64,000 bases of DNA from Loxodes magnus (lineage: Eukaryota; Ciliophora; Karyorelictea; Loxodida; Loxodidae): positions 248,001 through 312,000 of the forward strand of contig CAMPDV010000252.1 of assembly GCA_946699065.1 (NCBI GenBank). Direction: 5' to 3'. The notes beneath the pieces were generated by a model, which worked only from the letters and a program-made list of their open reading frames with translations, did not search any database and was not told the origin of the DNA. The position numbers were made by a program, and so were the translations under genes. Positions 5,173 to 64,000 of the stretch are shown here, piece after piece (positions within the stretch are counted from its first letter, which is position 1; each line of letters begins with the position of its first letter).

Positions 5173-5967
5173 AAAAAACAATGGAGCAATCTATTTGCCT
5201 TTCCAAAAACCGATCTAAAAACGAAAAAAAAAGCGGCAAAACAATTATTGAAATAACATAAACTAGAAGAGAAATCAAGCTCTTCATCAGAAGGTAAAAT
5301 TATGATAGGAACATCTCAGAAGAATCCAGGTAAGATTGAAGAGAAATCAGAATTCTTTTTATAGCACGACTAAATGAAAAAAAATCTCTGGGTATCAAGA
5401 AATAGTTTATAACAAAGGAGAAAAAAGCAGGGAATTAAGAATTTCATAGATGATCAAAATCATGAATTTTTATAATTTGACGTCAGTTAATCCAGAATAA
5501 TTTAGTAACGGAATAATAATTATATTAATAGTCTCAAACGAATCTTAAACAAAACCATGACATGATCATTGAAAAGGAATTTATTTGAAAAAATGTTCAA
5601 GAAAAACAGAAAGATGAAAAGATTGACCAAGAATAAATAAAATGAATAAATCAGCTTGAAAAAAAGTATTTTTGAAAAAACCTTTGAAAATATAAATCAA
5701 ACAATGTTGGTATTGCAAATATAGCTGACATTTATTGGAAACTTGTGGTGGGTGAAACTAACGTAACTAAAATAACAATTAAGAACATGAAGGACGCTCA
5801 ATAGACTCTATATTACTGAAACAGTAATTTATAAAATAAAATCATTTGCAGGAAACTCCGAATATTTTTAGTGGTTACATCCACGTTAAAAAAATGGCAG
5901 TAAGAAACTGACTGAGATTTCAGGTATTGCAAGACTTTTAAATTTTAAGTTCATTATTACTATTATT
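5173..5967 (+). mobile_element. ZK-B Gag-like element with decayed ORF
   Basis: A GC-richer island absent from the right arm (empty site near 32.07-32.10 kb). It opens with an A-run and an ATG at 5181, like the 37.9-kb copy, and ends in attattactattatt. With TAA/TAG as Gln a Ser/Lys/Gln-rich frame containing S-S-S-S-E-G-K follows after an early shift and closely matches the N-terminus of the 37.9-kb copy. At 5705-5746 the knuckle CWYCKYS*HLLETC keeps all four ligands, with TGA in place of the residue before His. Beyond it V-I-Y-K-I-K and V-V-T blocks match the post-knuckle domain. Several frames are needed, so the copy is a pseudogene. Possible diverged target duplication: tatttatctaattcag and tattaatttatttaag. 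Confidence 0.7.
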
Positions 5968-6448
5968 AATTTATTTAAGCCAAATTATGAATTGAAATAA
6001 ATACTATAAGAAATTAACTAAAAAATAAAAGAAAATAATATTTTTGATTTAAAAAGTAGTATCCATTTTTTCCTTTAATTAATATTTCAACAAATTTATT
6101 AAAATAGCAATTCCCTTTCTAATATAAAATGTAAAAATTATATTTCATTAAATTTTCAATTTTTTTCTACATACTAAGTAGACTTAATATTCATCCAATT
6201 AAAAATGTATTTTTTTATTTAGGCTTATTTAAAATAATTTAGACTGATAATATATTCTTATCTAATTTTTATTAATTTTATATATCTTTGAATTTACTTT
6301 TTAAGCTTTTTTATATAAATATAAAATTTTTATGTTTGATGAGCTAACTTTATTAGAAATTTAAATATTCTAAATAGCATATAGTAATAAGTCGATACTT
6401 TTATAACTAATTAAAAAATATTAAATTTATAACTTTTTTAATTAAACT

Positions 6449-6463
6449 ATTAATAGCTAACTA
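6449..6463 (+). repeat. Target-site duplication, left copy
   Basis: The 15-mer attaatagctaacta recurs at 7340-7354, bracketing the 6.46-7.34 kb unit. The right inverted-repeat arm near 31.60 kb carries the corresponding uninterrupted site. The first few bases of the right copy merge with the TAT run, so the exact length is uncertain by about 4 bp. Confidence 0.8.
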
Positions 6464-7345
<882 letters not shown>

Positions 7346-8059
7346 AGCTAACTAAATTATTTCTGATTAGTTATAAAAATAGTTAATAAATAATTTAAGA
7401 TTAAAATTGCTAATCAGTTTTAAGATCTTCATAAAAGGTTACATTATGCTTTTATAATTTATAGAGTTAAAAAGACTTATCGTTTAAAAAATTAAAAAAT
7501 GCAAATTTAATTTCTTTTTGCTTATTTTATTAATATTTGACAGTTTTTAGATTGATTACTAAGATTATTTATTTAAAATTTAATAGTTTAAATTTATTAA
7601 ATTAATACTAATTAAAATAGTTTAGCTTCTTTCTGGATAATAAAAATAGAATCTATAAATTTAACTTGTTGACTCAATTACGTAAGTGAGTGAATAATAA
7701 GTTTTTAGAGAATAAATGTATTTTGAATAAATTCGAATCCGCATTAGTAAAGACTTCAATATGCCTATGAATTCTAAAACAAATTATCTGATACAAATTT
7801 TAATAGGATGTAAGATAAAATCAATAATAATAAACTAATTTGTAATTATTTAATCGTTCAAAATATAAAATTTAATTTTTAACTTATTTAAGTGTTTAAA
7901 ATTAATAAAACTTTCCAATAAGCTATAGTAAAATAGTTTAAATATTTTTTTATGCAATGAAAACAAAATAATAAATTATATATTAGAAAGATATATTAAA
8001 AATATTAAAGTATTATTTAACTTTAAAATTTCTATTTAAAAGGTTAAATAATAGTAAGT

Positions 8060-8069: not shown

Positions 8070-8740
8070 TTTAACTTTATATTTAAATTTAACTTAAATA
8101 TGTTCGTCTTCCAGCTTTACAAATTATAAAGTTTATCATACAACTTGGCGTTTCTAAATATTCTTGGTTCCTTTCTTAAGTCGAATTGCAGTCTTCTTTA
8201 TTTAGGGTCTTACATTGCGCTTTTTTCATTTTTCCTCCACAGCTTTCCGTCACTTGAAGGTATGAAAGTTGTCTTTTTCTTCCAAAAGTCGTTTCACAAT
8301 TTTTCTTGATTTATTTTTATTCACGACATTTTCTTCATAAGTGCTTCGTGCTGCAGTAGATGTAACACTTCTTTTTAATTTTCTTGGGTCTTGTTACTTT
8401 AATTTATTCTATATCAATTGGATCTTGTTGCTGATACTAGTGATTTTTTTCTTCCATTTTTTTTTCAATTCTTTCTAGTCTCTCGTCTAGCTTGACCCAG
8501 TTCTTTTCGTCTTGTTGTTGCAAAGTTCAGATGTCGTTTTCAAGCTCTTGGACTTATTCGAAGACGCCTGCCTGCCTTGACTATTCTACCAACCATGTGC
8601 ATCTCATCGTCTTCTCCATAACCAATGAGATCTTGTCTTATTTTGAACGTTTCTTCTTCAAGCTCTGTTATAGTCTTTATTAGTCTGAAGATTAGTTTAA
8701 GGGTCTAATTTTAGTCCATGCTGCAGATTTATTCTAAGCT
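8070..8740 (-). mobile_element. Gag-like element, zinc-knuckle pseudogene
   Basis: 671 bp between perfect 10-bp duplications. Minus-strand reading with TAA/TAG as Gln gives an acidic stretch E-L-E-E-E-T-F-K-I-R-Q-D, then in a second frame a heptad-like coiled coil (V-Q-E-L-E-N-D, then L-D-E-R-L-E-R-I-E-K-K-M). The knuckle at 8367-8326 reads CYIYCSTKHL*RKC: first Cys, His and last Cys in place, the second Cys shifted one residue, TGA two codons after His. A Cys-containing tail follows. The frame switch sits at the slippery repeat GGCAGGCAGGC near 8,570. There is no obvious TTA tail at the left end. Base composition is clearly higher in G+C than the flanks. Confidence 0.75.
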
Positions 8741-9125: not shown

Positions 9126-9127
9126 AA

Positions 9128-9176: not shown

Positions 9177-9179
<3 letters not shown>

Positions 9180-10419: not shown

Positions 10420-10654
10420 TTCTATAATAAATTAAACTGGAATTATAAATAGCACATTTTAGAATAATTTCAATTAGCAATTTAATCTTTTAACTTCAAA
10501 GATTTACTTAGCAAAATTATTTATTATAAAAATTAGAATAATTTTTTATTTATTGCTTAAAAGTATATAATGTTAGATAATTTTGCTTATAATCAAAAAT
10601 TATTAAATTTATTATAAATATTTAAAATAATAAAAAAACTTAAATAAAAAAAAT

Positions 10655-11620
10655 AAAATAGTTGAAGGTTTCAAGTCAGGCTTCTATACCACCTCTTCCT
10701 AAGCCAAAAAGGAAGGGAGGAAGCAAGAAACCAAGTCTTAATGATCTTAGCAATCTTCTCTATCACAACCTTAACCAAAACTGAACTAAAAACTTGGAAT
10801 CTAACAAAATGAACGAAAGCCAACATTGAAGAATATACACACGGAAACTCCAACCTCAAGCGAGAAACCGAGGAAACAGATGAAGTCTGTTCTCCACCAG
10901 GAGGTATCAGAGTTCAACCCTTCTGGCCAGATGAGCATGGAGTAGCTCATCAAAGTGATACTGAACCTCCAGGAAGTGGTCAAGAGATTGAAGAAGGACA
11001 ATGATATGCTAATGGTAAAGGTAGACCTAACAGAAGGTATTGAATCAAGACTTATGTCCTAGGAAAGAGACCTTAACACCTTTTGGAATATCTCACAAAG
11101 TCAGACTAACGAATCCTAAAAATAACTTTAGAAACAGACTGAACTGGATAATAGACTCGGAAAAGTAGAAGAGAAATTGTAAACTTTTAAGAAAGAATAA
11201 AGCGAAACTGGAGCTAAACAAATAGAAATCGAAGCCTAGAAAGAGGAAAAAAATCAAGGAAAATAATTCAAAATAAAAAAGAAATATTTCCGCTGTGGAA
11301 GCGTATGAAATTTTTATCGGAAGTGTTATAATTCTAATAGAAATAAAGAAATTATTGGATAAAAGAACAACAAAAGAAGAAAAAAGAAGAAGCAAGAATG
11401 AAAAGAATATATTGCAACCTGGATGGTTCAATATACAAGATCAAGATGGAACCATATAAAAGGAAGGAAAACCTGGAGAAACCCCAGTTCCCAATCTCGC
11501 TAAAATTGGACGTCCCAAACATTTATATTTAGCAGCAGGGAGCATGAATTGTTGTCCTCCTGACGGGGTTGGAAATCCCTAAAACGGAAAACTCCAAATT
11601 AATATTATTGTTATTTTTTT
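10655..11620 (+). mobile_element. ZK-A Gag-like element
   Basis: A GC-rich island homologous from end to end with the minus-strand unit at 29,969-30,964. Both begin with a short A-rich leader, then a frame reading G-F-Y-x-T-S-S-Q-A-K-K-E; here the start ATG has become ATA. It ends in attaatattattgttatt, the TTA-type tail. I find no clear target duplication. The 3' 500 bp also match the 21.93-22.39 kb copy closely. Confidence 0.8.
10829..11401 (+). pseudogene. ZK-A Gag-like protein, knuckle broken
   Basis: One frame from 10,829 carries a basic Ser/Pro segment, the coiled coil beginning M-S-M-E-Q-L-I-K-V-I-L-N-L-Q-E (10,931 on), a second charged coil and the knuckle YFRCGSV*NFYRKC at 11,285-11,326. 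The first Cys is Tyr, His is Asn, and a TGA stands before the His position. After that TGA the same frame runs on to a second TGA at 11,399-11,401, which overlaps an ATG at 11,398. From that ATG another frame encodes the conserved block Y-C-N-L-D-G-S-I-Y-K-I-K and stays open for about 45 codons. The 30.5-kb copy is nearly identical over the N-terminal coil. The protein would package element RNA. This copy is dead unless TGA is suppressed. Confidence 0.75.
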
Positions 11621-14850: not shown

Positions 14851-14857
14851 AACTATT

Positions 14858-18290: not shown

Positions 18291-18299
18291 ATTTTAAAA

Positions 18300-21207: not shown

Positions 21208-21926
21208 ATGAACAGGAATGCTCAGTTAATCTGAGTTTTTATATATTTATTCATTTTTAATCATTTTATTTATATGATTAGTAAAAATCCTAAAATTTTA
21301 CTTTATTTAAAATTAACTTTAAATGATGATTAATTATTTTAAAATTTAATTTTCTTTTTGTTCATTTTTTTATTTTTTTTTATTTAAAAAAAAGTTATTT
21401 TTTCTTTTTTAAATTTATTAAAAAAATTAATTAGTTTAATAAAATTGATTTTTACTATCTACAAGTTTAATGTATTATTTTTTTGCAAGATAGTCTTTAG
21501 GGAGTTAAATTTTTCTTTCAGCTCCAAGATTTTTTTCGCAATAAGTTAACATATTTTAGTTCAATTTTATATTAAAAAAAAATTTATATTTAATATTTAA
21601 AATCGATTTATTTTCTTTTTTTAGATTATTTTAATCTTTTATAACTCTTAGTTTTTTCTATATATTTGTTGTTTTTTGATAATTCATAAGAGTATAAATT
21701 TGTTTCTGATAGAAAAATTTTATATTAATGATTCTTTCTTGATTTTATTATATTTTACTGTTATTAAAAAAAATTTAAATCTTTTTGAGGTCGAATTTTT
21801 CAATTTAATCTCTTTCTTACATTTGATAGTAACTTAACTTATTTAGTAACTTTTAGACAATTACAGCTAAGTGTCACAAATCATGCTATTTTGATTATTA
21901 ATCTTATTTTAATAGTAAAATTAATA

Positions 21927-22390
21927 ATAATAATATTAATTTTGAGTTTTCCGTTTTAGGGATTTCCAACCCCGTCAGGACAGCAGTTCATGCTCCCTGC
22001 TATTAAATATAAATATTTGGGACGTCCAATTTTAGGGAGATTGGGAACTCGGGTTTCTCCAGCTTTTCCTTCCTTTTATATGGTTCTATCTTGATCTTGT
22101 ATATTGAACCATCTGGGTTGCAATACATTCTTTTCATCCTTGCTTCTTCTTTTTTCTTCTTTTGTTGTTCTTTTATCCAATAGTTTCTTTATTTTATTAG
22201 AATTTCTAACACTTCCGATAAAAATGTCATACGCTTCCACAGCAGAAACATTTCTTTTTTATTTTGAATTATTTTCCTTGATTTGTTTGTTCTTTCTAGG
22301 CTTCGATTTCCATTTGTATAAATCCAGTTTCGCTTTACTCTTTCTTAAAAGTTTACAATTTCTATTCTACTTTTCCGAGTCTATAGTAAA
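21927..22390 (-). mobile_element. ZK-A Gag-like element, 5' truncated
   Basis: Minus-strand copy matching the 3' half of the 10.7-kb unit. The TTA tail is at the left (aataataataatatt) and homology stops near 22,390, as expected for 5' truncation. The knuckle at 22,250-22,209 reads CFCCGSV*HFYRKC with all four ligands intact and TGA before His, at the same codon as in the 10.7-kb copy. The frame closes with a TGA (22,136-22,134) overlapping an ATG (22,137). From that ATG another frame encodes M-Y-C-N-P-D-G-S-I-Y-K-I-K-I-E-P-Y and F-P-I-S-L-K-L-D-V-P before a TGA near 22,000. The plus-strand ORF at 22,104-22,403 is a shadow. Confidence 0.8.
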
Positions 22391-23999: not shown

Positions 24000-26270
24000 G
24001 TAAAAATAATTAAAAAATTATGCAATATAAAAAAGAATGAAAATTTATTTTTAAAAGAATTTTAAATTAATTTGAAAATAAGAATAAAATATAAAATTAT
24101 ATAGATATATTAAAAATCTTTATTAAAATTATAAATATGAGAGTCAATAGCTATAGACGAAAAAATATTTAATTAATAATAATAATTCAATTTTTCTAAT
24201 GATAAATAAAAATAGTTTAAAGTTGTAATAAATAAATTAAATTGAGGGATAAAAGCGAAAATATATTTTTCTACAAAAAATTAAAAGATAAAATTTAAAT
24301 AATTTTAATCAAAAAGGCTAAAATAATTTTTTTTAATAATAGCGAAAATAAAAGAAAAATAAATTAAATTAAATATAAAAATATAAATTTATGTACGCTT
24401 TATTATATAAAATTTAAGTTAAATAAACTAAATTCATTTATTCAATTATTTATTTTTATGCATTTTCTGAATCTTTAAATTTAGTTTTAGAGATTATTAT
24501 TCTTATCAATTCCTTTTGCTCGAAAAGTAAATCTAAAGACGATGCAAACTAAATTAAGGTTACAAATAAAGATTATTTGAAACAGTTAAAAATTAAAATT
24601 TTAAATATAAAATTAGTTAAACTAATTAAATATTAGATAAAATAAGTTTAATACATTTTAAAAGTAAAAATTTATTACTATAACCGATAATAAATAATTT
24701 GCTTAAATTTGTAAAATAAAACTTCTATTATTCAATTTTTTCAGTTGAGCAACAAAAGAGAAAAAAGATTATATTTAACTTGAAAATATTTGTTATTAAA
24801 GAGATTTTTATTTGGAAATAGGATATTATTATATAGTTTATAAATCACAACATTTTTATTTATTATTAAATGTAAAATATAAAATTTAAATATTCTAAAC
24901 TTTTAAATATTTTTTATATTAAATATAAAAGTTTCTATTTTTTGAAAATTATTCTAATTATTTCATAAATTTATTTTATTTTACTAAACTATCATTATGC
25001 AATTATTGATATTTTACTTCTAATTTTAAATAAGATAGCTAATTTTCTAATAAATTTTATTTTTTTCTAAATTAACTAGAATAGATAAATTAAATATTTG
25101 TATTTTAACTCTTTATTATGAGATACTTTAAATCATTCAAATTACTGTTTTTAATTTTAATTATTAAATATTAAACAATTATGAAGAAATAAACTAGAAA
25201 TAATTTATTCTTTGCTTCTCTTCTTTATTTAAAGATAAGGAAGTTGTTTCTAAAAGGATTAACTTAGACAGGAATTGACTACATTAAAGGAATAGATTAA
25301 GTCTAAATTTAATTATAGTAATTTTAAGAAATTACGAACTTGTTAAGAAATTACAAGGCAAGGACTTCAAGTGGCCATATCGAAAGGTTTAAAATCCTGG
25401 ATATATAAATCTTTAATTTAGAGATATTTATGTGAATTTTAAATTTTCATAAGATAACAAGTTGATAATTAAAGTTCTGAATTAATTTATAAAAGAATTA
25501 CTAAACAGGTGACTTATTAATATTTTTAGATTACACTACCTTATTTCTTTTGCAATATAATCATTTTAGATAATTATAAAAGTTTTATGTTTGGAAAATT
25601 TATTTAACTAGAAATTTAAAATAAATAGAATTTTTTAAGACAAAATGTAGTTTGAAATGCTTTTTTCTTAAATTTTTTATTCCTAAAATGAATATTTTTC
25701 TAAATTTTTAAATTATCAATTTTTTATTTTACATTCAACTAGACAAACATCTACCTAAAGTATATTGCATATTTTACATATTTTTAATGAAAATTGTTTA
25801 AAAATTTTGAATAATTACTAATTTTTTTAATTATATTTAAAATATTTTATTATTTTGTTTGCTTTTAGTTAATTAAAAAACTTTAAAAATAATATTTGAT
25901 TTCTAAATTTAATAGTATTTAGTAATTTTAAAATATTTTACTCAGAAAGTAATTTATATTTTTCAAGAAAATTTTTAAGTTTTTACTTAAAATTTTATAA
26001 TTAAAGATAGAACTTTATTAAAAGAAGGATAAGAAGAGATAGTTACAATTAATGATAAGATAAAATTTCGAAAATTAAAATTAAAAATGAGAATATAAGT
26101 TTAATTTAATTATAAAATAATATTTCAAAAATTATACTAACATTTTTTAAATACTTTATTTTCTTTTAAACTTAATTCAAGTTAAAGAATATAAAATTTT
26201 AGATACCAATGATGATAAATGAAATAATCAAATACAAAAATTTTACATTATTGATTACCCGATTTTTTTG
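24000..26270. other. AT-rich interior of direct repeat copy 1
   Basis: No frame is supported. The only compositional feature is 25,345-25,400, a G+C-richer patch conserved in copy 2 near 45,125-45,170 that superficially resembles a decayed tRNA (see rejected items). Confidence 0.5.
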
Positions 26271-26280
26271 GAACAATAAA

Positions 26281-26790
26281 GTGAAAAGGAAAATTACGAA
26301 AAAGAAGTTAGAAAATCAGTTTTAAGGTCTTATAAAACTACTAAAAAGAATAAAACAGCCAAACTGGATCATAGATACAGCAGATGCAAGACTAAAAGGT
26401 CAGCTGAATCTTATAGTTACAAGCCAAAGACAACCTGAGCAGAATAGGAGATAAAAGAAATAGTAAAAAATTAGATAAAAATAAGATACATAGAAAAATA
26501 AATTAGAATTAAAAGAAAATGATACTACTGATTTTCGACAGAACACAAATTCAAGCAATGCAAAATATTTTATTAGTTCAAAAGAAGCTACTGAATCAAT
26601 AAAAAGAAGAAAATATTTTCTACAATTAAAAAGGAGAAATCTACAAACTGAGAGAAAATTAAAAATTTACAAGAATGAAAAGCCCAAGAACTAAGAAGGG
26701 AAAATTTTAAGACTTTTTTGAATAAGAATTACTAAGCTTACAAACTTATTTTGGTAGTGGGAATGATATAACTGCTGCTAAACATTTTTA
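26281..26790 (+). pseudogene. Unidentified basic coding relic (repeat copy 1)
   Basis: Frames with TAA/TAG as Gln read K-E-N-Y-E-K-E-V-R-K-S-V-L-R-S-Y-K to a TGA. In a second frame T-D-F-R-Q-N-T-N-S-S-N leads into a strongly basic helix R-R-N-L-Q-T-E-R-K-L-K-I-Y. The latter resembles R-N-R-L-Q-E-K-R-E-L-K-V at about 60,570. Copy 2 (46,270-46,790) keeps the same blocks. At least two lesions are present. Family unknown. Confidence 0.35.
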
Positions 26791-26861
26791 ATTATAGTTA
26801 TTATTTAGTTATTTGAGTTCTAATTAAATAAAATTATATTTTATAATTTAGAATAAACTAA

Positions 26862-29968: not shown

Positions 29969-30964
29969 AATAATTATAATAATTTTATTTAAATTGTTTT
30001 GTGGCACCAATTAGCCACACTAAAAAGAAGTTTTAAAGTTATCTTTATTTTGCTTGTTGCTAGTTCTAGGATCCTTGAGTCTTGCTCCTCTGATCTTTCA
30101 TCTCCCACTATATTTTATTTTAACTCTATCTCCAAATTCTTCCAGTTCAAGGTTACTTTTCAATCTGTAGACTTCTCCATTTGTTCTACATCAGATCTGG
30201 TTCTTGCTCTTTCTTATTCTTTGCTAGACTTGTTTTTTCCATGTAATTTCTTTTACTTTACGAAACTCACCACAGTTCTTCCATTTGTGCCATTTACTTT
30301 TACAATAGTAGCAAGTTTCACAATCCGAAGTTTTTGATTTGTTTTCATCTTAACTTAAGGATTCTTCTCGATCTCCATCTTATCAGATAGAATTTACTCC
30401 AATGGAATTTGCTAACTTTGGAAGCTTTTCTGACTTTGTAAGATATTTTCGATCTGCTAGCTCTAGTCTTGAATCTTTTGCACTTAGGAGTTCGTCTAAA
30501 TAAATTACTCTCGTTAGTAATTCCAAAGAGCGTCGAGTTCCCTCTCCTAATTGACCATTCTAAGATCAAGTGTATCTTAAATTTCATGAGAGATCAGCTC
30601 CGTCAACTTCGTGTTTTCCTTGCGAAGCTTTTTAACCTCTTCCTGGAGATTTAGTACTACTTTTATGAGCTATTCCATGCTCATCTGGCCAGAAGGATTA
30701 AATTAAGAGACCTTCTGGTGGAGAGTAGACTTCATCTGCTTCCTCGGTTTTTCACTTGAGGTTGGGGTCTCCATATGGGCTGTCTTTAAGGTTATCTTTT
30801 GTTAATCTTGTTAAGTTTCAGGTTTTTATTAAGAAGAAGATTAAGGTTATTATTAAGAAGACAGAGAAGAGATAGTTTCCTGCTTCCTCTCTTCCTTTTT
30901 GGCTTAGGAAGAGGTGATATAGAAGCCTTTCCTGAAACTTTATTCCATTTTCCTTTTTTTTATG
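29969..30964 (-). mobile_element. ZK-A Gag-like element, near full length
   Basis: 996 bp between 13-bp duplications. Minus-strand order: A-rich leader, ATG, long Gag-like frame, knuckle, post-knuckle domain, then a 3' end aaattattataattatt touching the duplication. It is absent from the left inverted-repeat arm. This is the most complete ZK-A copy and gives the length of the family as about 1 kb. Confidence 0.85.
30160..30948 (-). CDS. ZK-A Gag-like protein, 262-codon frame
   Basis: The longest frame in the window under the ciliate code: ATG at 30,948, no TGA until 30,162-30,160, with many TAA/TAG read as Gln. Start M-E-Q-S-F-R-K-G-F-Y, then a Ser/Gln-rich low-complexity segment, a Thr/Pro/Lys segment, and a long coiled coil from M-S-M-E-Q-L-I-K-V-V-L-N-L-Q-E with heptad leucines. 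L-D-L-R-M-V-N-Q-E-R-E-L-D and I-L-Q-S-Q-K-S follow. The knuckle CYYCKSKWHKWKNC at 30,313-30,272 has all four ligands but lies in another frame, so one frameshift near 30,390 separates coil and knuckle. Past the knuckle, after a TGA, C-R-T-N-G-E-V-Y-R-L-K fits the post-knuckle domain. The coil implies multimerisation and the knuckle RNA binding (known for Gag-type proteins). The frameshift makes this copy nearly, not fully, intact. Confidence 0.7.
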
Positions 30965-37580: not shown

Positions 37581-38418
37581 AATAATAATAATAGTATACT
37601 TAAAGTTAGTAGAGTTTTGCATTCTCTGGAATTGCAACCAGTTCCTGCGGACAGTTTTTTTAAATTGGGTGTGATCCACGACATTTTTATTAAGTGGAAG
37701 GTTACCACTGTAACCGTTCAAGTGGTCTTGCAAAAAGCTTTTATTTGTAGATCCCTGTTGGAGTTATTCATAGTTTATTGAGTTGTATCCATGTTCTTTT
37801 CTGCTCTTATTCGTTTATTTTCTTTCATTATCAACAGTTTTTTAAAATATGTTGATTTGATTTGCAACATCAACAAAGTTTGTATTATTGTCTTTATTTC
37901 GTTCTTTTTTATGATAATTTATTTTCTATATTTTCTAATCTTTTAATGAAACTTGTAGCAATCATTTCTTTTTCTGGATTCAATTCTGTTTTTAATTCTA
38001 TTGGTATTTTTTCTATTTCCATTTTTGTGTCGTATTTAAAATTTTATTATGATTAAGTTCAGAGTTATTCTTCCGTTATTAATTTGCTACAAATAAGTTA
38101 TCTTCTAAGTATTAGTAATTCGTTGTTCTAATCTTCTATATTACTCATTAGTTCCCGTATTTTTTCGCCTAAGTTGTAAGTTGTTTCTTCATAATTTGAG
38201 ATTACTTTTTACATTTGATCTAATTAAATTTAAAGTTTTTGATTAGTTTCGTTTTTAGGTTAACTTATCTCTATTTATCCTACCATAACTTTACCTTCTG
38301 AAGAAGAGCTTGACTCCTCCTATTGTTATTATTTTTTCTAAATTTCTTTTGCCGCTTTTCTCTTTAGGCTTCTAAGTTAATTTTTTGAGAGTCGAAGAGA
38401 TTAATCCATTTTTTTTCA
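37581..38418 (-). mobile_element. ZK-B element, complete, 838 bp
   Basis: Perfect 15-bp duplications on both sides fix its limits. The left edge is its 3' end, aataataataatagtatact, that is (TTA)n on the minus strand directly against the duplication. The right edge is an A-run followed 9 bp in by the start codon. The whole transposed unit is therefore one Gag-like gene plus a short tail, with no room for a reverse transcriptase. This is the clearest demonstration that ZK units are complete as they stand rather than random fragments. Confidence 0.9.
37600..38409 (-). pseudogene. ZK-B Gag-like protein with five TGA codons
   Basis: ATG at 38,409. The same frame reaches the knuckle and the post-knuckle domain about 210 codons later without any net frameshift, reading TAA/TAG as Gln. 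Segments: basic start M-D-Q-S-L-R-L-S-K-N-Q, Gln run, S-S-S-S-S-E-G-K, a long coil (L-Q-I-Q-L-D-Q-M-Q-K-V-I-S; I-R-E-L-M-S-N-I-E-D), a second coil F-I-K-R-L-E-N-I-E-N-K-L. The knuckle at 37,875-37,834 is C*CCKSNQHILKNC with four intact ligands. Then W-I-Q-L-N-K-L-*-I-T-P-T-G-I-Y-K. In-frame TGAs lie at 38,059, 37,870, 37,831, 37,825 and 37,768 (low coordinates). Two of them are TGG in sister copies. Either lesions or recoded codons; see findings. Plus-strand ORF 37,862-38,056 is a shadow. Confidence 0.75.
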
Positions 38419-41400: not shown

Positions 41401-42420
41401 AAAATAGTAAATTGATATTATATTTCTAATTAAATTTTGCTAATTTCCTATAGTAAGACAAAATTTACTTAATTAAACAGAAAGTTTATTTATATCTTAA
41501 TGATTTATGTTTTCCCTGTCTTTGATGCTCCCATCAAAAGTAGTTAAAATTGCTTCTTAAGCTAAAAATTTAATAAATTTGTTATTAGATTTAAGTTTAG
41601 AGATTAAATAATTATTTTTCTATTTACATAAATAGTTTCATTTTCTAATTATTTTTTAATTTTATAAATTAATATGTTAGTAAAATAATTATTCTATAGT
41701 AACTTCTAGTCAATTATTTTAAGTTATCTTTTCTTAGCTTACTAATCAATTTTCTAGCAATATTTTCTTTTTTAAATTATTTATTTTAAGTTAATCTTTT
41801 AAAATAAACTTTAGATTTTCTCCTTAACTTAATAATGTCCAAACAATTACAATTTTTTTAATATTTGATTATAGAGATTTAATATTATTAAGATTACTAA
41901 TATCTATTTTAAGATTTGTTATTATATATAGAATTATTAATAACACATATTTTTCATTGTCATCTATATTTATCTGTTTATGTAGCATTAAATTAATCTC
42001 CGTTATTTTCCGGTAAAACATGTTTCTACTACTTCTGAATGCAAAGACTTTGTTTATCTCAAATTAGCTTTATAATCTCCTATTTTTGCATTATTTTTGA
42101 TTTAATATTTTTATGGATTAAAAAAAATAGAAAAGTTCTCTTGTAAATAATCAAAATCAACATAAAAAAATAATCTGAACAATCTTAAAAAGTAATTCTC
42201 TAAAAACCTTTAAGCATTCAATAAGTAAATTAATATATTGCATTACAAAAAATAAACACTTTAATTTCAGTTAAATACTTAAAATAAAGAAAGGTGAAAA
42301 CAGTATAAGTAGATTTGTTTTAATTTAACACAAAAATAAGGAATTTTGTGTAGCTTTCTACTAGGGAAATTACTTTCTACGACTTTGATCTTGATCAAGT
42401 GATAAAACTAATGAAATATG
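38440..42420. other. AT-rich spacer, no gene seen
   Basis: Apart from direct-repeat similarity up to about 39,710, no protein-like frame, tandem array or structured RNA stands out. Confidence 0.5.
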
Positions 42421-42429
42421 ATAACCTAT

Positions 42430-42860
42430 AATTCATTATTATTATAATAATTATAATTTAAACTAAATGTCAAATATAGATTTATGTATCTTTGGGGCTT
42501 CAAATTGGTATCTGTGTACAATTTTTTTCGGGGTTGTATATCTCGTGCTTTTTATAAATGGATGATTACCACAAAGGATGTTCCTAGTTTCTTATGGGTA
42601 TTTTTATTCATAGATGCCTAATATGTTATTCATAGTTTCTTTAGATTTTTTGTTTTTTTAAGATTTTTCAGGTTTTTTTAATTTCATTTTTCTTAAGTTG
42701 CCTTCATTCTTTAAAATGTCTTTGCAAGTGATATCTAGATTTTTATTACCAACATATTTTGATATTTTTTCTTTGAATAAACCTTTATCCAACATCACAA
42801 TTCTTTTGCTATGGCTTGTAAAAAAAATCATATTTTACTTTTCTTAATGCTGAAGTTTAT
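42430..42860 (-). mobile_element. ZK-B element, degraded
   Basis: Minus-strand unit with a left 3' tail attattattataataatt. The knuckle site at 42,754-42,713 is CWQQKSRYHLQRHF: first Cys, Trp, K-S and His retained, second Cys now TAA (Gln) and last Cys now Phe. Downstream G-I-Y-E-Q-K and, in another frame, V-V-I-I-H-L match G-I-Y-K-Q-K and V-V-T-F-H-L of the 37.7 and 54.3 kb copies. The 5' end is unclear and no target duplication was found. Confidence 0.65.
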
Positions 42861-43015
42861 ATAAATCTTCTTTTATAACCATTCTTTGCGATTATGTTGA
42901 TTGGTTTAAGACATTTTATAAAGATAATTTTTGTTAATAAAATATTTTTTATTAATTAAATTTTAAGAATTAATATTTCACTGTTTTGTCTTCTTTGTAG
43001 TTCATTAAATCCAGG

Positions 43016-46000: not shown

Positions 46001-47065
46001 AAAATTTCACATTATTGATTTTCATAAGATTTTTTGAATAGTAAAGTAAAGAAAAAAAGTAAGAAAAGAAGTAGAAAATCTGTTTTAAGAAAGTCTGAAC
46101 GACTTTGAGCTATCAAATTTAAAAAGTTAGAAAAAGAAAAATGCATTTACGCGAATAATAGAATGAAAAAGAAAAATACTAATAGAATTTAGAAAATTGT
46201 TTTAAAGAAATCTTAACAACTTTTAGTTATTAAATTTAAGAAGTTAGAAAAAGTAAGAAATGCATTTCCATGAATAGTAAAGTGAAGAAGAAAAGTACGA
46301 AAAGAAGTTAGAAAATCTGTTTTAAGGCCTTATAGAACTACTAAAAAGAATAAAACAACAAAACCAGATCTAAAATGTCAACTAGATCTTATAATTACAA
46401 GCTAAAGACAACCTGAGCAAAATATGGAGATTAAAAAATAGTAAAAAATTAATAAAAATAAGATCATAAAAAAAATAAATTAAAATTAAAAGAAAATTAA
46501 AAGAAAATGATACTACTGTTTCTCGACAGAACACAGATACAAGCAATGGAAAAGATTTTATTAGTTCAAAAAAACTATTAAATCAATGAAAAGAAAGAAA
46601 AAAGAAAATTATTCTGCAATTAAGAATGAGAAATTTACAAAATGAAAGAAAATTAGAAGTTTACAAGAATGAGAAGCACAATAACTAAGAAAGAAAAATT
46701 TACAGATTTTTTTTATAAAAATTAATAAAATTACAAACTTATTTTTAGCGATGGGAACGATATAACTGCTGTTAAACATTTTTAATTATAATTATTAGTC
46801 ATTTATTTAATTTAAGGAGTTCTACTTAGGTCCGATTATATTTTATAATCTAGAATAAACTAATTGGGATTTAAATTAAATTTGCAATAGTAATTATATA
46901 TTCCTAAAAAAGGAAAAATGAATAAAATCATAAAAGAATTTCTCCAACTAAGGATAAGAGTAAAATAATAATAAAAGAAGTGTGAAAAAAATATTTTAAT
47001 ACTTAATTTTATCTATTTACAAACTAAAAATCTATTTTTTTAATTAATTTTGATAATTAATTAAT
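43016..47065 (+). repeat. Long direct repeat, copy 2
   Basis: Partner of 23,281-28,215. It lacks the 1.15-kb insertion of copy 1 but has gained extra minisatellite units at 46,030-46,340. The ORF block at 43.1-43.57 kb is frameshifted relative to copy 1. A short (ataattat) tandem run at about 43,833-43,855 is specific to this copy. Confidence 0.85.
46030..46340 (+). repeat. Minisatellite, about 120-bp units
   Basis: About 2.7 units, each containing gaagaaaa-g-aagaagttagaaaat, then tgttttaa-gaa-tct, then a variable part ending aatgcattt-cg-gaata. The array matches 17,970-18,290. The other direct-repeat copy has one unit only (26,280), so the array expanded here after duplication. Confidence 0.65.
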
Positions 47066-48920: not shown

Positions 48921-49734
48921 ACTTTAAATCACAATAAATAATATAGATTAAAAATGATCAGTATATATAAGTTTAGAACTAAGGTTTTAATTTAAAAAGA
49001 ATCTTCATGTTAATCATTATCCTATTGATAATCCATATTTTATATGTGAATAATATAAGATTCTTGGAAATATGTTATAATTTACATATTATTACTATAA
49101 AAGGAAATTATTATCATAAAAGATTAGGAATTAGATAAAAGGTGCTTTAAATTTCTTAATAAGATCTTAAAAACTTTTTTAAAATTATTTTATTTGAGTA
49201 TTTATATTTAAAAATAAAAAAGTATCACAAAATGTTAATGTCAAGAAGACTTGAATTGCTTAAAATTTAGAAAATTAAAAAAAATGTAAAAGATTTAAAA
49301 CCCAAGAATGATTGAAATGTGAAAAGAAAAAGTTTAATTTAAAATTAAAAGACATTAATTAGCGATTTTTATTTAAAGAAAACAATTCTTGTAGTTAAAG
49401 GCGTCGATATACTCTTTTATTTAACAATAAAAAATAAAAAATAATTTGATTATTTAAAAATTTATTTGTTTATGTTAACAAAATTAATAATATATAATAT
49501 ATAAATTAAAAAATTATATTGTTATTTTCACTTTTTATTTCAAATTTTATTTCATAAAAATACTTCTTCAAGATTATTTCAAATTAGAAAAAAAAATTCA
49601 GTATTAAAAGTAATGAACCTTATAATTTTAATTTGTGTTTAAATAAATAAAAAATAGAAAAATCTAAATTTTTAGGTAATTGAAGCTTAAATTTTTTAAT
49701 TAAATTAAATTAAGGAAATGACCTATCATTTTTA

Positions 49735-50520
49735 TGATAAAGAGCTGAGAGGGATCTGTCTAAATATTTTTAAAAGTATGCTTCCTTTTGGATATATCAA
49801 TGTTCTTTTTAACTTTTTACTATAGAAATTTCCTCCTTAGTAGAATAATATTGACGCTTTTCTTCATAATTCTTATTATTTTCTTTTTGTTTCTCTTCAT
49901 AATTCATCTGTCTTTCTTTGTTTGAATTCTTTGTATTCCTTGAATTACCACAGAAGGTATCAAGTTGATTCGCAATAGAAACATTTTTTATTATGTTTTG
50001 GTCTTTGCTCATATTCTTTCCGCTTCTTCTCACAGCAAGTACATGTTGTTTTAACTGTATGCTCCAGAATCATTTCCACCTCAGGTATTGGAGGCTTAAA
50101 TCCAGTTGTAACTCCAGGAAATTCTATCTTGGTTTCTTTCAGTTTCAATATTTCTTCTCTTAAATAGTATATTAATGCATATCCTAAAAATCCAGCAATT
50201 CCTCTGCAATATTTGTTCTAACCTTTCCCTCATTTAGGCATTTTCATATCTTAGTGCTCCTTCGAGCTTCCGTAGTTCTTCAACATCTTCCATAACGTCT
50301 CATTCTTCAAAATCTTCTTAGTAATATTCAGCTTCATGTACCTAAAAGATCTAACTTTTGAAGGAGATCAGGTTTTATTAATTTTTTTTCAGGGCCATGA
50401 GTTAGGTTTGCCCTGATTCATATCCGTGTTTTTGTGACTTGTGAGGAAGAGTAATTTCAAGTTTCTCTTCGACTCTTATTTTTTTCTTTTTCTCCTCCAT
50501 TGCACTAAAGCTATTGCGGA
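49735..50520 (-). mobile_element. ZK-C Gag-like element
   Basis: A GC-rich minus-strand island with the ZK order: start codon near the right edge, coil, Cys-rich region and knuckle, and near the left edge Y-P-K-G-S-I-L-L-K-I, the post-knuckle motif. No TTA tail or target duplication is clear, so the limits are approximate. It is distinct in sequence from ZK-A and ZK-B. Confidence 0.65.
49897..50500 (-). pseudogene. ZK-C Gag-like protein, frameshifted
   Basis: ATG at 50,500, frame one to TGA 50,083-50,081 with one internal TGA at 50,302-50,300. It starts M-E-E-K-K-K-K-I-R-V-E-E-K and has acidic coil D-V-M-E-D-V-E-E-L-R-K-L-E-G-A-L. Near 50,200 the reading shifts to a second frame: Y-L-R-E-E-I-L-K-L-K-E-T-K, then F-K-P-P-I-P-E-V-E-M, then T-C-T-C-C-E-K-K-R-K and the knuckle CFYCEST*YLLWQF at 49,983-49,942. 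The first two ligands are present, a TGA precedes His, His has become Tyr and the last Cys Phe. Closing TGA at 49,899-49,897. An additional CxCC upstream of the knuckle is unusual for the family. Confidence 0.65.
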
Positions 50521-50529
50521 GATGTTCAA

Positions 50530-52030
50530 CCTTATTTTAATAGATTTTATTTATGAGTTTATTATTTATTAAATGAAATACTTTTTTAAATTAAGCAACA
50601 CACAAACCAAAATATTATCATTTTTTGTTATTGACGAAAATGTGGTAATTAATAATATTTTATTTCATTTTTTTAATTTACGATCTGTTTCAGATTTAAA
50701 TTTTTCACTGAATGTAATACTTATTTTAAAATTTAATTATCTTTACATATCTGCCTTCTTATATTGTTAAATTCCTAGTCAAATCATCTTCAATATTATC
50801 GTTTAATAAATGTTCTATAGTAAGAAAACATAAAATTATAGTAGCTTAATAATTATTATAAATTCTTCATACTTTATTAGCTTGTGAGCATTGTTAAGAA
50901 GATATATTATTATCATTTTCATAATTAAAAAAAAGAATTATTCTATTGGAAAAACATGTTATAATAAAATAATAGATTAAATATATTTTATTATACCCTT
51001 CTTATATCATTATGAGACAATAACTCCTGTAAATTAATTTATCTTTGTTTTAAATTTTCTAATATAAATACTACAACTAGTTATTAAATTTAAGTTTGTT
51101 TAGATAAAAAATTTTGAAATCTTAGGCTTCCAATCTTTTAGTTTGCAAATATATTAAAAGTTTAGAATTTGATTGCCACTTATTTCCAATTCCATAACTT
51201 AAAATTGCACTTTTATCTTTTTTTGATTTAATCCTAGATAGTACATTGCTAATATATACTTTTAAATTTTGATTTTAGGGTTCAATTTAAAAATTTAAAT
51301 TAAATAATCATCTTTTAATTCAAATAACCTTAAAATAGATATTATATATATTTATAAAAATAAAATTAGCGCAATTAGAATTATTTCTAAAAGCTACAAA
51401 TATTAGCTTATTGGAAATTTATTTTATTCTACTATTATATTATACTATTTTATATACTATTATTTTACAATTTATATAGCGAATTTATGATTCTTCATAT
51501 AAAAAGTCTACTATATTATCTAAATATTTTAGTTAATAAGAAAAATTTAACTTTTTTTTATATTCCTATTATTAATCATTCTTAATCGTTTATAACATTG
51601 AATTGATTAAAATTTAATATCAAGATTATACGTATATTAAAATTTAATAGCTAGGAATAATTTCATATTTTTTGGATTTTCTTATACTTTTATCTTATAT
51701 AAAATTTATTCTGAGTTATGTTGACTTATATGTTTTTAATTATGTATTAAGTATCTAAAGCTATTTTATAAGATTTTTTATTTCTTATTATCAAAGAAAT
51801 TTTTTTATATTAGATTTAGTATTTAAATTTAGTTGCTTTTGTTTTTTTCGTTTCTTACTTTTTTCTCTTTTCACATTAGAAATGTAGAATTTAGGTTTTC
51901 TTCTGGCTCTTTTATTTAATTTAATATTAAGTATTTTTTAAGTCTAATTTTTTTTAATTATTTACTTTTTAACCTATTTTCGCCATTTTTTACAAGATGC
52001 TAAACAAATTCTCTAATATTATATAATTAA
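50530..52030. other. AT-rich spacer
   Basis: The standard-code ORF at 50,573-50,770 has no family features and no raised G+C. Nothing is supported here. Confidence 0.45.
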
Positions 52031-54200: not shown

Positions 54201-54211
54201 CAAGTAAATTT

Positions 54212-55050
54212 ATTATTATTATTATGAACTATATTAAAAAAAAGGTTTAGCATTCTCTGGGGTCTCAATCAGGTACTTACCTATTACTATTTTTGTAATA
54301 AAGATCAATACTACCTTCTTGATTAAGTGGAAGGTGACCACTGTTGATTCTTAATCTATCCAACAAATATTTTTCTCTTATAAATTTCTTTTTGATGTAA
54401 TCCATAGTTTATTAATCTAAGCCCATATTCTGTTTTGTTCTTTTTCGTTAATTTTTGCAAGTTATGCATTTCTTTAATAAATGAATCCTGATTTACAGTA
54501 TCAACATTGCTTGAGTTCTTATATTGATTAATTTTTTTTATAAATATCTTGTTTTCTATTTTTTCTAATCTTTTAATTATTCTGATTTTAAATTTATAAT
54601 TCTGGAATTTCTTCTTTTTTTATTTAAGGTGGAGTTTTTTCTAATTCCATTATTGATTATTGGGTAAATTTGATTAAGATTATCTTTATAATTATTCTTC
54701 CGTTACTAATAATCGATTTTAAATGAGTTATTTTCTTAAATTCGTTAATTTACTATCCTGAAAATCAATATTGCACATAAGTTCTCTCATTTATACAAAT
54801 TGATAATATATAATTTCTTTGTATCGGAAAATTTATTTCTTCATTTTTCGATTTAGTTTTAGATTATTTAACATATGTCATTTTTATTCTTCTACTTATT
54901 ACGTGCCAACAATCACTTTACATTGGAAAGAATAATTAGCCTCTGATGTAATCATCTATTTTGATTTTTCTTTGCCGCCTTTCTCTTGGCTTTCCTATTT
55001 TATTTTTTAGAAAAGTGAATAACTATTCCGTTTTTAACACGCAATTCTCA
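54212..55050 (-). mobile_element. ZK-B Gag-like element, about 840 bp
   Basis: Left edge tattattattattatgaac is the (TTA)n tail on the minus strand. The length equals that of the 37.9-kb copy, and the blocks K-R-K-A-A-K-K, R-E-L-M-C-N-I-D, T-E-E-Q-L-Q and L-N/I-N-K-L-W-I-T are shared with it. The knuckle region at 54,506-54,466 reads C*YCKSG, then after a compensated frameshift HLLKKC, so the ligands are recoverable only across two indels. Downstream N-K-L-W-I-T-S-K-R-N and T-V-V-T-F-H-L-I-K-K are in one clean frame to the tail, ending near E-T-P-E-N-A-K-P. A pseudogene, but second best preserved in ZK-B. Target duplication uncertain. Confidence 0.75.
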
Positions 55051-60339: not shown

Positions 60340-60740
60340 GATTACAGAAAGCAATTCAATGATAATAGAAGAAGTTGATTGAAAATCTGCAAGAAGTTAG
60401 AAAATGTGTTATTATTGTAATCCTTAAATGCATTTATGAAGAAGATGGTGGTAATTTCTAAATTTTATATAGATTTTTGGAAAATTAAAAAAACAGAAAG
60501 GAAAATCGAGAATTAGGAACAACTGAAGTTAAAAAAGATAGAAAATCTATACATGAACGTAATAGGAATCGTTTACAAGAAAAAAGAGAATTAAAAGTAA
60601 TAGAGGAACTAAAAATCATAAGAATAGAAAATGAAATAGGGAAAAGAAACCAGGAATTTTTAAATATAGCTTGTAGAACAATCCGGAGACAGGAGAGAAA
60701 GAGGTTGAAAATCCTTCAAGAACTTCAACATTTAATTTAA
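60340..60740 (+). pseudogene. ZK-type knuckle followed by basic coil
   Basis: At 60,407-60,448 the plus strand reads CYYCNPQMHL*RRW: first three ligands present, the last Cys changed to Trp, TGA two codons after His as in the 8.3-kb copy. A frame from about 60,531 then encodes a charged coil (S-I-H-E-R-N-R-N-R-L-Q-E-K-R-E-L-K-V-I), which continues without TGA past 60,740. The coil resembles the 26.6-kb relic. It is unusual for the coil to follow the knuckle, so two different relics may be abutted here. Confidence 0.5.
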
Positions 60741-60744
60741 TATA

Positions 60745-61620
60745 AAATATTAACTTTATTAATATAAAAAAATGGTTCCTAAGAAATAATTGAATAAAAA
60801 CAAACAGGATATCGACTAATAAAACTATCTAATCGAAATATACTTCCCAGGAGCTGATAATAAAAAATTATAATAATCACTTCTAAACTTGATTTAACGA
60901 TTAGATTATCTAACTTTTACTGTGCAAAAACTATAAAAAGAAAATCAATGAAAAAAATGAAAAAAAAAATAGAAATCAACACTAAAGCATCCAATTCTTA
61001 ACTTATCTAATAACTGGAAAAATGGAGTTAAAATTTAAAGATATTAACAAGCAAAATAATTCTAAATAACTTATTTCTCCTCATAATGATACTATGTGTA
61101 GTGGAATAGCAGTATTCTAAAACTTTTTCTAATAGGTAAAAAATTAAAAATTGAAAAAATGTTGGAAATGTCAAAAATTAGGACATATCTCCAAAAAATG
61201 CACAAAAATGATGTTTCTTTTGTTAAAGAATGAACATATATATAAAAATGCTGGTACGTTAAGAGAAAACAGAAATAAACAAGTCAAAAGTTATGAAATT
61301 ACATATCTTAGTTATACTGTTCCCCAGAAGGAATATTTTATAAGAAAAGGAATACGGTGGAGATTAATCACAATTGGATATAGTAAACGCTCAAAAAAGA
61401 AGAACGTTACAAATGTTTGGGCCTAATTGAGACTGAAACAAGATTCCTACAGTCAAGAAGGGATAAATGAGCTTGAGTCGATACGTATTAAAAGAATGCG
61501 AGTCTATTAATTCGAGAGAAGAATAAAGTGACTCCATGAACATTTGAGAAAACTTATAAAATGATTCTGTGACTAACTTAACAAAGGAAAAAGTCACGTA
61601 AATAGATTATTATTGTTATT
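60745..61620 (+). mobile_element. ZK-C Gag-like element with intact knuckle
   Basis: About 0.88 kb, ending in attattattgttattattat. An A-rich stretch precedes the ATG at 60,772. This is the copy with the most canonical knuckle in the window. Limits are taken from the start codon and the tail, because no target duplication was identified. Confidence 0.7.
60772..61531 (+). CDS. Gag-like protein with canonical CCHC knuckle
   Basis: The first frame starts at ATG 60,772 (M-V-P-K-K-Q-L-N-K-N-K-Q) and carries the coil L-L-N-L-I-Q-R-L-D-Y-L-T-F-T-V-Q-K-L-Q. The second frame is open from 60,893 to TGA 61,529-61,531 without interruption, so one shift near 60,945 joins them. The knuckle CWKCQKLGHISKKC at 61,160-61,201 has all ligands plus the Gly before His seen in retroviral and retrotransposon nucleocapsids. 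After it, F-I-R-K-G-I-R-W-R-L fits the post-knuckle motif (G-x-x-[YW]-[KR]-[IL]), then a basic K-R-S-K-K-K-N-V. Known knuckle chemistry implies zinc and single-stranded nucleic acid binding. Apart from the one shift the gene looks usable. The minus-strand ORF at 61,391-61,597 is a shadow. Confidence 0.7.
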
Positions 61621-62039
61621 ATTATAATTGAAATTTATAAAAAATTTTCTTTTTATTGCACTATTTAAAATTTTACTACAAGATATTTTTGTGTAAAAAT
61701 ATTTAATAATAGATTCTTATTTAATTAAATTAGCTATATTATAAAACTACATTTTTGCTAATATAATAATTTTATTTAAATGGTTTTATGTTTTATTTTA
61801 TATATATTTATAATTATAAGATACTAAAATTAAAGAAATTTATGTAACTTATTTAAATCTATTAAATGCTTTTGATTTAAGTTTATATCAAGGTCTGGAA
61901 AAAATTTAAATGTAAAATGATAAAAAAATTTCTTAATTCCTAATAAGATTTAAATATTTAATTAAAATTAAATTTTATTGGTAAAAATTTATCTAAGCAA
62001 TCATATCTAAATTAAATATAATATAAAAGTGTATATAAA

Positions 62040-64000
62040 ATGCTAATAATATAATAAATTTCAAGAAACAGAAGAAATAAAGATATTAAAAGCAATTAAA
62101 AGTAAAACTAAACTTTTGTTTATCTTATTTTATTATTTAATATTCCTTAGTTCTAATTGAATTATTAAGAAATATCCAATTACTTATTAGAAAATAGAAG
62201 TTTATAAATTAAGAAGTAAAAATATTATAACTATAGCTCCTTTAACTTTGCATTTTATGAATAAAATGTAATTAATTTAAAATAATATTTTGGGAAATAT
62301 TAAAATAAATTGCATGTTTAGTGCTATTTTGGTTATAATAATTAATTGATAAATAACGGCTCATTTTTTTTAAAAACTTTAAGTTTATTAAGAATTTTAG
62401 AAAATAAAGATAGAAGTTAAGCAGGAGCTGATATTGCAATTCTTTCCAACATCTAATAAAGTGCTACTATAGCTACAAAATATTAAAAAAGACAAGAAGG
62501 TAATAAAATTCAAATAGAGCTTAAAAGACTGTTTAGTAATAACTTTAGAATTTATAAGAAAAAAATTGGATACAGAATAAGCCTTATTTAGATGGAGAGA
62601 AAGTAATCATCCAAATAAAAAATAGTAGAGAAATCCTACCTCGATAAAAATGGATAGCCTGACTGGATGAAAATCCAAGGAAAGCAAGTATTACTTAAAT
62701 TTTTAGGTAATAATTAAGCTTTTTAAGAAGGTAAAATTTTTAAGTAGCATAAATCACTAATTATAAATTAATAAAATTAAATCTTTATCTTAGTTAATTA
62801 GTTTAAAAATATGGAATACTTTATTAATATTTCACTCATTACTTATAAATTTATTTATTTATAAATTTTGATCTGAGAATTAAATTATTAAATGATATTA
62901 TATAGTTATCAATTAAATTATTTTTTCTTATTTTAATTTTTTTAAATATTTATGTTATAGAATATGTTCTTCAAAATTTTGAAATTGATTCGTTTATTAT
63001 CTAATTAAATTGTTTATTTTACACTTTATAGTTGTGGATTAAAATCTTTTATTCTTCAATTTTATCAAACATTTTTATTAAATATTTACGATTTTATCTT
63101 TGATCCTTTTCCTGCTTCAAGCTATAAGATAAATGCCTTGACTAAAATTAGAAAATTTAATCTTAATTTCTAAAATTTTTAAGAAACATTATAAGAGCTT
63201 AATTTGCAAAAATGCAAATTTTTTATTTTTTAAATGTATTTCTAAAGGTTTTTTTACATTATTTAAATTTTAATAAAATACCTTATATTACAAATTAAAA
63301 AGACAAATTCAACATTATTTAAAATTGTTTAACATATTTTTAAGAATTTAGGATTTATTTACATATTTGTACATTTTATATATCTACAGTCCCCTATTTA
63401 TATTCTAATTATTTTTTGAAATTCTATATTGAAGAATAATAAAAAATCTAGGTTTATCTTGGAAAATAAGAAAAAAGTTAAATATATCTATTGAAGAGCT
63501 ATAAATTAAAAACTATAATAAGAATAGTTTTAATATATTAAAATATAGAATATATACACTAACTAAAATACTTTTCTAATCGTAAATTTTATATTTATTA
63601 GCGAAATCTTTATTTTTATTGCTTCAATTAATAGAAATTATCTTTTAGTTAGAAATTTATTTAACTATTATATTTTATTCTATATAAAATAATTATTTTT
63701 TAAAACCTGATAAAAAATATTATTAAAATATGTGCTTTTTTATATGATTTAAATTAGCATTTTAACTAAATTTTTTGTTTAATTTTTTTACTTTAAATAA
63801 AAATTGAGATATTTAGGTTATCTAATAGAAAGTTTAATTAAAAAAAGTAGTTAAATACTATATCTAACAGATTTTTATAAAAATATAGCATTATTAAAAA
63901 GTATAAAGTAAAACTAATCAATCTTAAATTTATTTTAAATTAAAAAACATAACTAGTTACTTTTTATTACGATTGGATAATTTATAATCTTTAAAAAAAT
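62040..64000 (+). repeat. Second direct repeat, copy 2 (runs off window)
   Basis: Partner of 37,130-39,710, in the same orientation and order, reaching the window end. Substitution and indel divergence is considerable. It contains a short ZK-B insertion at 62.41-62.72 kb. Confidence 0.7.
62411..62720 (+). mobile_element. ZK-B element, 5' truncated and degraded
   Basis: Plus-strand fragment. C-Y-Y at 62,452-62,460 followed by I-L-K-K looks like a knuckle with an internal deletion. S-N-H-P-N-K-K near 62,600 matches the C-terminal S-G-N-[LH]-P block of other ZK-B copies. Flanking ttttagaaaataaag and ttttaagaaggtaaaat may be diverged target duplications. In the other direct-repeat copy the same flank (ttttaagaaggtaaaat at about 37,540) lies left of a different ZK-B insertion. 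Confidence 0.5.

Follow-up and report, generated by a model that had tools for sequence, protein, structure and literature searches.

Compact mobile units holding a Gag-like gene alone in a 64-kb stretch of ciliate-like DNA

The 64,000-nucleotide stretch of contig CAMPDV010000252.1 analysed here (positions 248,001 to 312,000; the window) carries 14 related units with sequence of a Gag-like gene, which we read as copies of a mobile family. They are 0.45-1.1 kb long, lie on both strands, span 5.16-61.6 kb, and were found by searching the window under genetic code 6 with translated knuckle-like open reading frames (ORFs). Together they occupy about 17% of the window, their limits being approximate. 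About nine of them are well supported; the pair X26/X46, X42, X50 and X61 are less so. The first-pass annotation of the window had counted about 14 copies of 0.7-1.0 kb, and the number stands, but the size range is wider. Weaker fragments beyond the 14 are X62, X17 and X10b.

Two large repeats hold several of the units. An interrupted inverted repeat has arm 1 at 1615-9209 and arm 2 at 29401-35647, with an identity of about 73-94% by stretch. A direct segmental duplication of about 3.5 kb (23282-26819 and 43016-46813, blocks 76-92% identical) contains X26 and X46, which therefore represent a single insertion. The individual features are the following.

X5, 5163..5968, + strand: 5' junction about 18 nt before the ATG; coil; knuckle beginning CWYC with an in-frame TGA; tail of TTA-like sequence; arm 2 empty at the corresponding point, about 32.09-32.10 kb; candidate 9-bp duplication at 5154/5969, not significant (P 0.41).
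X6, 6464..7338, + strand: 5'-truncated; 186 open codons through knuckle and C-terminal domain into an ATT repeat; duplication at 6448/7339, its first bases merged with the tail; arm 2 empty at about 31.61 kb.
X8, 8071..8739, - strand: 5'-truncated; duplication at 8740-8750/8060-8070; the other arm cleanly empty at about 29.85 kb; TTA tail not clear.
X10, 10632..11617, + strand: near full length; start codon lost; 11-bp candidate duplication (P 0.087).
X22, 21925..22382, - strand: 5'-truncated; about 92% identity with X10 over 408 bp; duplication at 22383-22395/21912-21924; TTA-type tail of 12 nt.
X26, 26200..26810 (limits approximate), + strand: degenerate; in the segmental duplication, partner of X46.
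X30, 29969..30964, - strand: full-length; 5' junction 16 nt before the ATG; N-terminal half open for 218 codons; knuckle exact but in a different frame; duplication of 13 bp; arm 1 empty at about 7.97 kb.
X33, 33490..34140, + strand: 5'-truncated; arm 1 empty at about 3.11 kb; exact duplication of at least 8 bp absent; TTA tail not clear.
X37, 37581..38418, - strand: full-length; duplications at 38419-38433/37566-37580; ATG 9 nt inside; single frame with five TGA; (TAT)5 tail.
X42, 42415..43000 (limits approximate), - strand: degenerate; recognised by the family profile; TAA-type tail.
X46, 46300..46800 (limits approximate), + strand: duplication partner of X26.
X50, 49700..50530 (limits approximate), - strand: degenerate; ATGGA start, coil, knuckle-like CFYCESTQY; missed when held out of the profile.
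X54, 54210..55050 (5' limit approximate), - strand: X37 subfamily; TAA-type tail of 15 nt.
X61, 60550..61625 (5' limit approximate), + strand: candidate member; Pfam-recognised zinc knuckle, YCSPEGIFYKK, TTA-like tail.
X62, 62380..62800, + strand: weak C-terminal fragment with DKNGQPDWMK; membership uncertain, missed by the profile.

Insertion is seen directly in the inverted repeat. Arm 1 holds X5, X6 and X8, arm 2 holds X30 and X33, and for each of these five copies the opposite arm has an empty site, that of X30 with an additional small length difference between the arms. Exact duplications flank X6 (16 bp), X37 (15 bp), X22 and X30 (13 bp each) and X8 (11 bp). Their lengths were matched by random window pairs in 0 of 300 cases for X6, 1 of 300 for X37 and for X30, 2 of 300 for X8 and 8 of 300 for X22 (P at most 0.027); the duplication of X10 is borderline, with 26 of 300. 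The perfect 15-bp duplication bounding the 37,581-38,418 copy, the duplications at 6.46, 8.07 and 29.97 kb and the empty sites in the arms had all been noted in the first pass, and all proved real.

The ends of the copies point to the RNA that moved. The 5' ends of X37, X30 and X5 lie upstream of their own ATG, at 9, 16 and about 18 nt respectively, those of X6, X8, X22 and X33 lie within the ORF, and the copies all end shortly 3' of the ORF. X22 can be identified as a 5'-truncated insertion because its start is the point at which the similarity to X10 starts. Starts just before the ATG in some copies and within the ORF in others are the signature of target-primed retroposition (TPRT). The starts of X37, X30 and X5, together with the ends after the ORF, imply a mobile RNA that ran from just 5' of the Gag ATG to shortly past the Gag ORF, mostly into TTA-type repeats. 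Nothing besides Gag sequence lies between the duplications of X6, X8, X22, X30 and X37, and ORF1, now decayed, is all that lies between the ends of X37 and X30 (set by duplications) and of X5 (set by empty-site junctions). The idea that the 37,581-38,418 copy holds only a Gag-like gene is borne out in this way, with an ORF interrupted by its five TGA codons.

Perfect A/T trinucleotide runs of at least 12 nt occur at six places in the window, and four of them are the 3' ends of copies (X6, X22, X37 and X54). Imperfect simple-repeat tails are present in six others (X5, X10, X26, X30, X42 and X61). The TTA/TAT tails proposed for many copies are found in these two groups, but not clearly in X8 and X33. 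X6 has 108 perfect ATT units at its 3' end (324-325 bp, 7019-7343), a tract far longer than the other tails.

An alignment of nine copies gives the architecture of the protein: a coil, '[ME]IE', the knuckle 'K-x-K-I-R-K-C-x2-C-x-S-x2-H-x4-C', a Lys/Gln-rich spacer and the C-terminal motif 'C-x2-[DN]-G-x-[IV]-Y-[KR]'. The strict CX2CX4HX4C motif occurs five times in the six frames of the window, compared with none in 100 dinucleotide shuffles. The expectation that every copy would carry it fails, since the strict form is present at five of the 14 loci (X5, X22, X30, X37 and X61) and degenerate at the others. None of the 14 copies has an intact full-length ORF. An in-frame TGA lies within the strict knuckle of X5, X22 and X37, and frame changes occur in X30, X33, X10, X22 and X8.

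Judged by eye, in-frame TGA codons in X5, X10, X22, X30, X33, X37 and X54 often stand opposite W, Y or F of other copies, at positions before the knuckle H, inside the CX2C and before CxxNG. Reading of TGA as W is possible, but decay of TGG to TGA explains the pattern equally, and TGA stood opposite TGG in 0 of 7 cases in a pairwise count. An AlphaFold model of X6, built without an alignment, had a predicted local distance difference test score of 65 and was not used. A profile search of the PDB returned one match, with an expectation value (E) of 0.11, which we judged to be noise.

Leave-one-out profile searches were made with 14 loci, namely the 14 copies minus X42 plus X62. Held-out profiles recovered six of them at E<1e-3 (X6, X8, X10, X22, X30 and X33) and two weakly (X37, E 0.024; X46, E 0.018), and missed X5, X26, X50, X54, X61 and X62. 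The controls, five shuffled windows and the window in reverse, produced zero matches, and X42, which was never part of the profile, scored E 2.1e-4. Pairwise phmmer comparisons connect X37 with X54 (2.5e-19) and X5 (2.7e-8). X26 matches its own duplicate X46, and X50 is placed in the family by the alignment alone. In X61, Pfam zf-CCHC scored 3.4e-5 in a 183-aa piece and 9.6e-4, under the cut-off, in the long frame; the best non-self matches of its knuckle are X22 (E 0.007) and X6 (E 0.064). The C-terminal part of X61 has X22 as its second match (E 0.05), the first being an unrelated stretch at 860-934 (E 0.007). Just 5' of X61, YMNVIGIVYKKK at 60538-60678 (+) is possibly the end of another copy.

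With the knuckle as reference, the C-terminal part is in the -1 frame in six of the ten lineages with both anchors (11 loci), namely X5, X8, X10/X22, X33, X46 and X61. It is in the same frame in three (X6, X30 and X37) and in the +1 frame in one; X26 and X50 have lost an anchor. It is possible that the C-terminal domain had a second, overlapping ORF. Programmed frameshifting into this part was considered and rejected: a canonical heptamer in phase is missing from six of the seven -1 loci (those ending in G lay outside the search), X10 has a heptamer and its sister X22 has none, the X5 frames do not overlap, and the six -1 lineages versus one +1 lineage do not differ significantly (two-sided binomial 0.125).

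The coding history of the units was examined by codon position. Differences between the coils of X30 and X33 fall 28/13/58 over 97 codons, with synonymous sites saturated and a nonsynonymous rate (dN) of 0.19. Between X30 and X10 the counts are 72/55/94, with a ratio of dN to the synonymous rate (dS) of 0.31, and between the C-terminal parts of X10 and X22 they are 3/2/10 (dN/dS 0.19). Four duplicated stretches of the window, used as a control, are flat by phase (85/76/71, 95/97/105, 20/22/27 and 14/10/11, the last with only 35 changes). Set against these flat controls, the codon-position bias shows past purifying selection on the Gag coil, acting on Gag while the lineages were active.

A source of reverse transcriptase (RT) was sought by Pfam scans with stops read through. 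The scans took in the 3' flanks of 13 loci (all but X8), several 5' flanks and other stretches, about half of the strand space in the window, and gave no significant match to an RT or endonuclease. The stretch KNNKATGDDGLKAEIIKYGDQDFI at 28450-28720 (+) resembles the first RT motif of long interspersed nuclear elements (LINEs), and no tool confirmed it. The possible RT motif KNNKATGDDGLKAEIIKYG at 28.5-28.7 kb was set aside as a motif only, unrecognised by Pfam, the PDB and the protein database. X10b (9600-10240, -) and a second region, R56 (56300-57050, -), are mutually homologous (several matches, best 2e-6); the coil at the start of X10b is weakly like X30 (E 0.002), its C-terminal part is different, and no knuckle was seen. 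Considered as a linker to an RT, R56/X10b gave no Pfam match.

The protein searches gave a single match, P0001, a fragment of 79 aa from an ENA contig of 639 bp; the fragment is 90% identical to X10, so near relatives exist elsewhere. Bacterial and archaeal genome, viral and plasmid collections yielded no relatives, the plasmids being searched with the N-terminal half of X30. One viral contig shares an 18-mer with the 3' end of X10/X22; it is rich in GC and phage-like, and we attribute the match to chance.

We propose, with good though not full confidence, that the units form a compact, LINE-derived family without long terminal repeats (non-LTR) whose Gag-only RNA was copied by TPRT. The element RNA would carry one gene, ORF1/Gag-like, between a leader of 9-18 nt and an end shortly past the ORF, usually a TTA-type repeat; the gene product would start with a coiled coil, followed by a CCHC zinc knuckle and a short basic domain at the C-terminus. 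The Gag-like protein would bind its own RNA. The endonuclease and RT of a separate LINE may then recognise the 3' end and, at a nick in the germline target, prime reverse transcription. Movement by an RT in trans is the natural reading. The mobility of Gag-only units, as suggested in the first-pass annotation, agrees with the duplications, empty sites, 5' truncations and tails. A short interspersed nuclear element was rejected as an explanation, as the copies are protein-coding with codon-position constraint and gave no Rfam or tRNA match.

Several observations weigh against this proposal. At the profile level, the X30-type and X37-type subfamilies connect over 32 coil columns only, and among the members scanned Pfam recognises the knuckle in X61 only. 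Duplications were not significant at nine of the 14 loci tested (X5, X10, X26, X33, X42, X46, X50, X54 and X62; X62 was included, and X61 was viewed without a control), and the search zones for X6, X8, X30 and X37 were chosen after their junctions had been seen. X8 and X33 are without a clear TTA tail, and a shared 3' hairpin was not better than in shuffles (10 tested, z -1.41 to 1.29). The N-terminal parts of X10 and X22 are without constraint (dN/dS 1.12, 12 changes), the codon-position bias between X37 and X54 is weak (59/51/68), and the count for the C-terminal parts of X30 and X33 compared unlike frames and was not used. No element that carries an RT and shares this 3' end was found, so that we infer the action in trans. 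A match to RVT_3 (RNase H-like) at 35989-36138 (-), with E 0.005 and 17.2 bits versus a cut-off of 21.6, was judged to be noise; it lies on the X37 strand, 1.4 kb downstream of X37 and beyond the X37 duplications.

The first-pass annotation regarded a stand-alone mobile Gag gene as unusual and possibly undescribed. This view is overtaken by elements of the same kind in three papers: Paramecium 'solo ORF1' (PMC5405496), HAL1 (PMC5753468) and HeT-A (PMC5537684). As described by Guerin et al. 2017 (PMC5405496), the Paramecium tetraurelia germline has seven solo ORF1 elements (A-G), with only ORF1 and a zinc finger at its C-terminus, likely mobilised in trans and ending in (TAAA)n in three of the seven; in groups 1-3, an ORF1 with a similar zinc finger lies 5' of ORF2. 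By description, the window units are like elements A-G in their ciliate germline setting, an ORF1 with zinc finger only, a simple-repeat 3' end and inferred mobilisation in trans. They differ in having TTA-type tails instead of (TAAA)n and a conserved-motif stretch after the knuckle.

HAL1 (half-L1) of mammals is also a non-autonomous LINE derivative encoding ORF1p only (PMC5753468). The L1 ORF1 Pfam domain, by which a HAL1 would be recognised, was absent from the members scanned (seven pieces in one scan, five members in another). HAL1 has the mammalian L1 ORF1p fold and a poly(A) tail. HeT-A of Drosophila likewise has no enzymatic activities of its own, its RT likely coming from TART/TAHRE (PMC5537684). 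Unlike the window copies, which are interspersed with target duplications, HeT-A is telomere-specific. The HeT-A Gag has zinc knuckles. Tt.REP of Tetrahymena thermophila is described as a germline-limited non-LTR element with a conserved 3' tail of 54 bp (PMC6564038). It resembles the window units, by description, in its ORF1 with a 'potential zinc finger' and differs in the ORF2 that follows, with RT and endonuclease. Non-LTR elements are given as 4.75% of the repeated germline DNA of T. thermophila (PMC5182062). The window family is probably a new family of the already described solo-ORF1 kind, in what is probably a different ciliate from Paramecium.

The origin of the family may resemble that of HAL1: an internal deletion would have removed ORF2 from an ORF1-ORF2 LINE, for example a REP-like one, whose descendants would then have spread, with the C-terminal domain maybe a remnant of ORF2. 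We consider this a real possibility, somewhat short of an even chance; it is a rival on origin only and is compatible with TPRT of a Gag-only RNA. The zinc-finger ORF1 that precedes ORF2 in Tt.REP (PMC6564038) and in Paramecium groups 1-3 (PMC5405496) is in line with such a parent, and the -1 position of the C-terminal part in six of ten lineages is as expected of an overlapping second ORF. However, the C-terminal part has no likeness to Pfam endonuclease or RT domains, X6, X30 and X37 have it in a single frame with the knuckle, and the excess of -1 over +1 lineages does not reach significance. If a LINE had made processed retrocopies of a host mRNA for a zinc-knuckle protein, this would account for the very short leader right before the ATG and for the resemblance of the copies to full mRNAs. 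Such an explanation is nevertheless improbable: the tails are TTA/TAA-type instead of poly(A), divergent lineages have the same start and selection history, and no host-gene homologue was present among 5.8 billion proteins searched, apart from the 79-aa fragment.

Ordinary LINE copies that were individually truncated or internally deleted after insertion seem very unlikely to have produced the units. The KNNKATGDDGLKAEIIKYG motif, if it belongs to an RT, would mean that LINEs may be present in the window, but Pfam, the PDB and the protein database do not recognise it, and X6, X8, X22, X30 and X37, inserted separately, hold Gag sequence alone between their duplications. Deletion copy by copy predicts scattered ends and is disfavoured. 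Some LINEs have a CCHC motif after the RT, and a parent with its knuckle ORF 3' of the RT could give rise to the units if all were 5' truncations. We give this scenario hardly any credence, as the starts of three copies from two subfamilies fall no more than about 18 nt from the same ATG instead of at scattered points.

The TPRT proposal can be carried further, tentatively and with more doubt than belief, to long-lived Gag-only lineages, in place of recent and repeated deletions from a single LINE, with their own Gag under selection (as in X30/X33, where the protein is conserved at saturated synonymous sites), a borrowed RT and possibly an overlapping C-terminal frame. Gag would then act chiefly on the RNA that encodes it, making the family a stable LINE parasite of ciliate germlines. 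For a parasite that borrows its RT and has a selected Gag, the question of why it keeps a Gag of its own (cis preference) becomes testable. Solo-ORF1 elements, reported from Paramecium in the literature searched, would extend to another very AT-rich, ciliate-like germline, and the window adds high density, direct insertion evidence and signs of selection on Gag.

The GC content of the window is 15-26% in 2-kb steps; that of the copies is 0.22-0.35, versus 0.176 in the remaining window. In paired copies, TAA/TAG codons stood opposite TAA/TAG in 34 of 84 cases and opposite CAA/CAG in 11 of 84 (stop codons masked from the alignment, both sides counted). The frames of interest use TAA/TAG as sense, which fits code 6, as in most ciliates, and we infer a setting in ciliate germline DNA. 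The window gave no tRNA match in a bacterial-code search and no Rfam match, and the Tetrahymena chromosome-breakage 15-mer is not present in it. Tandem repeats of 117-121 bp lie at 18005-18300 and 46036-46325, far apart and mutually related.

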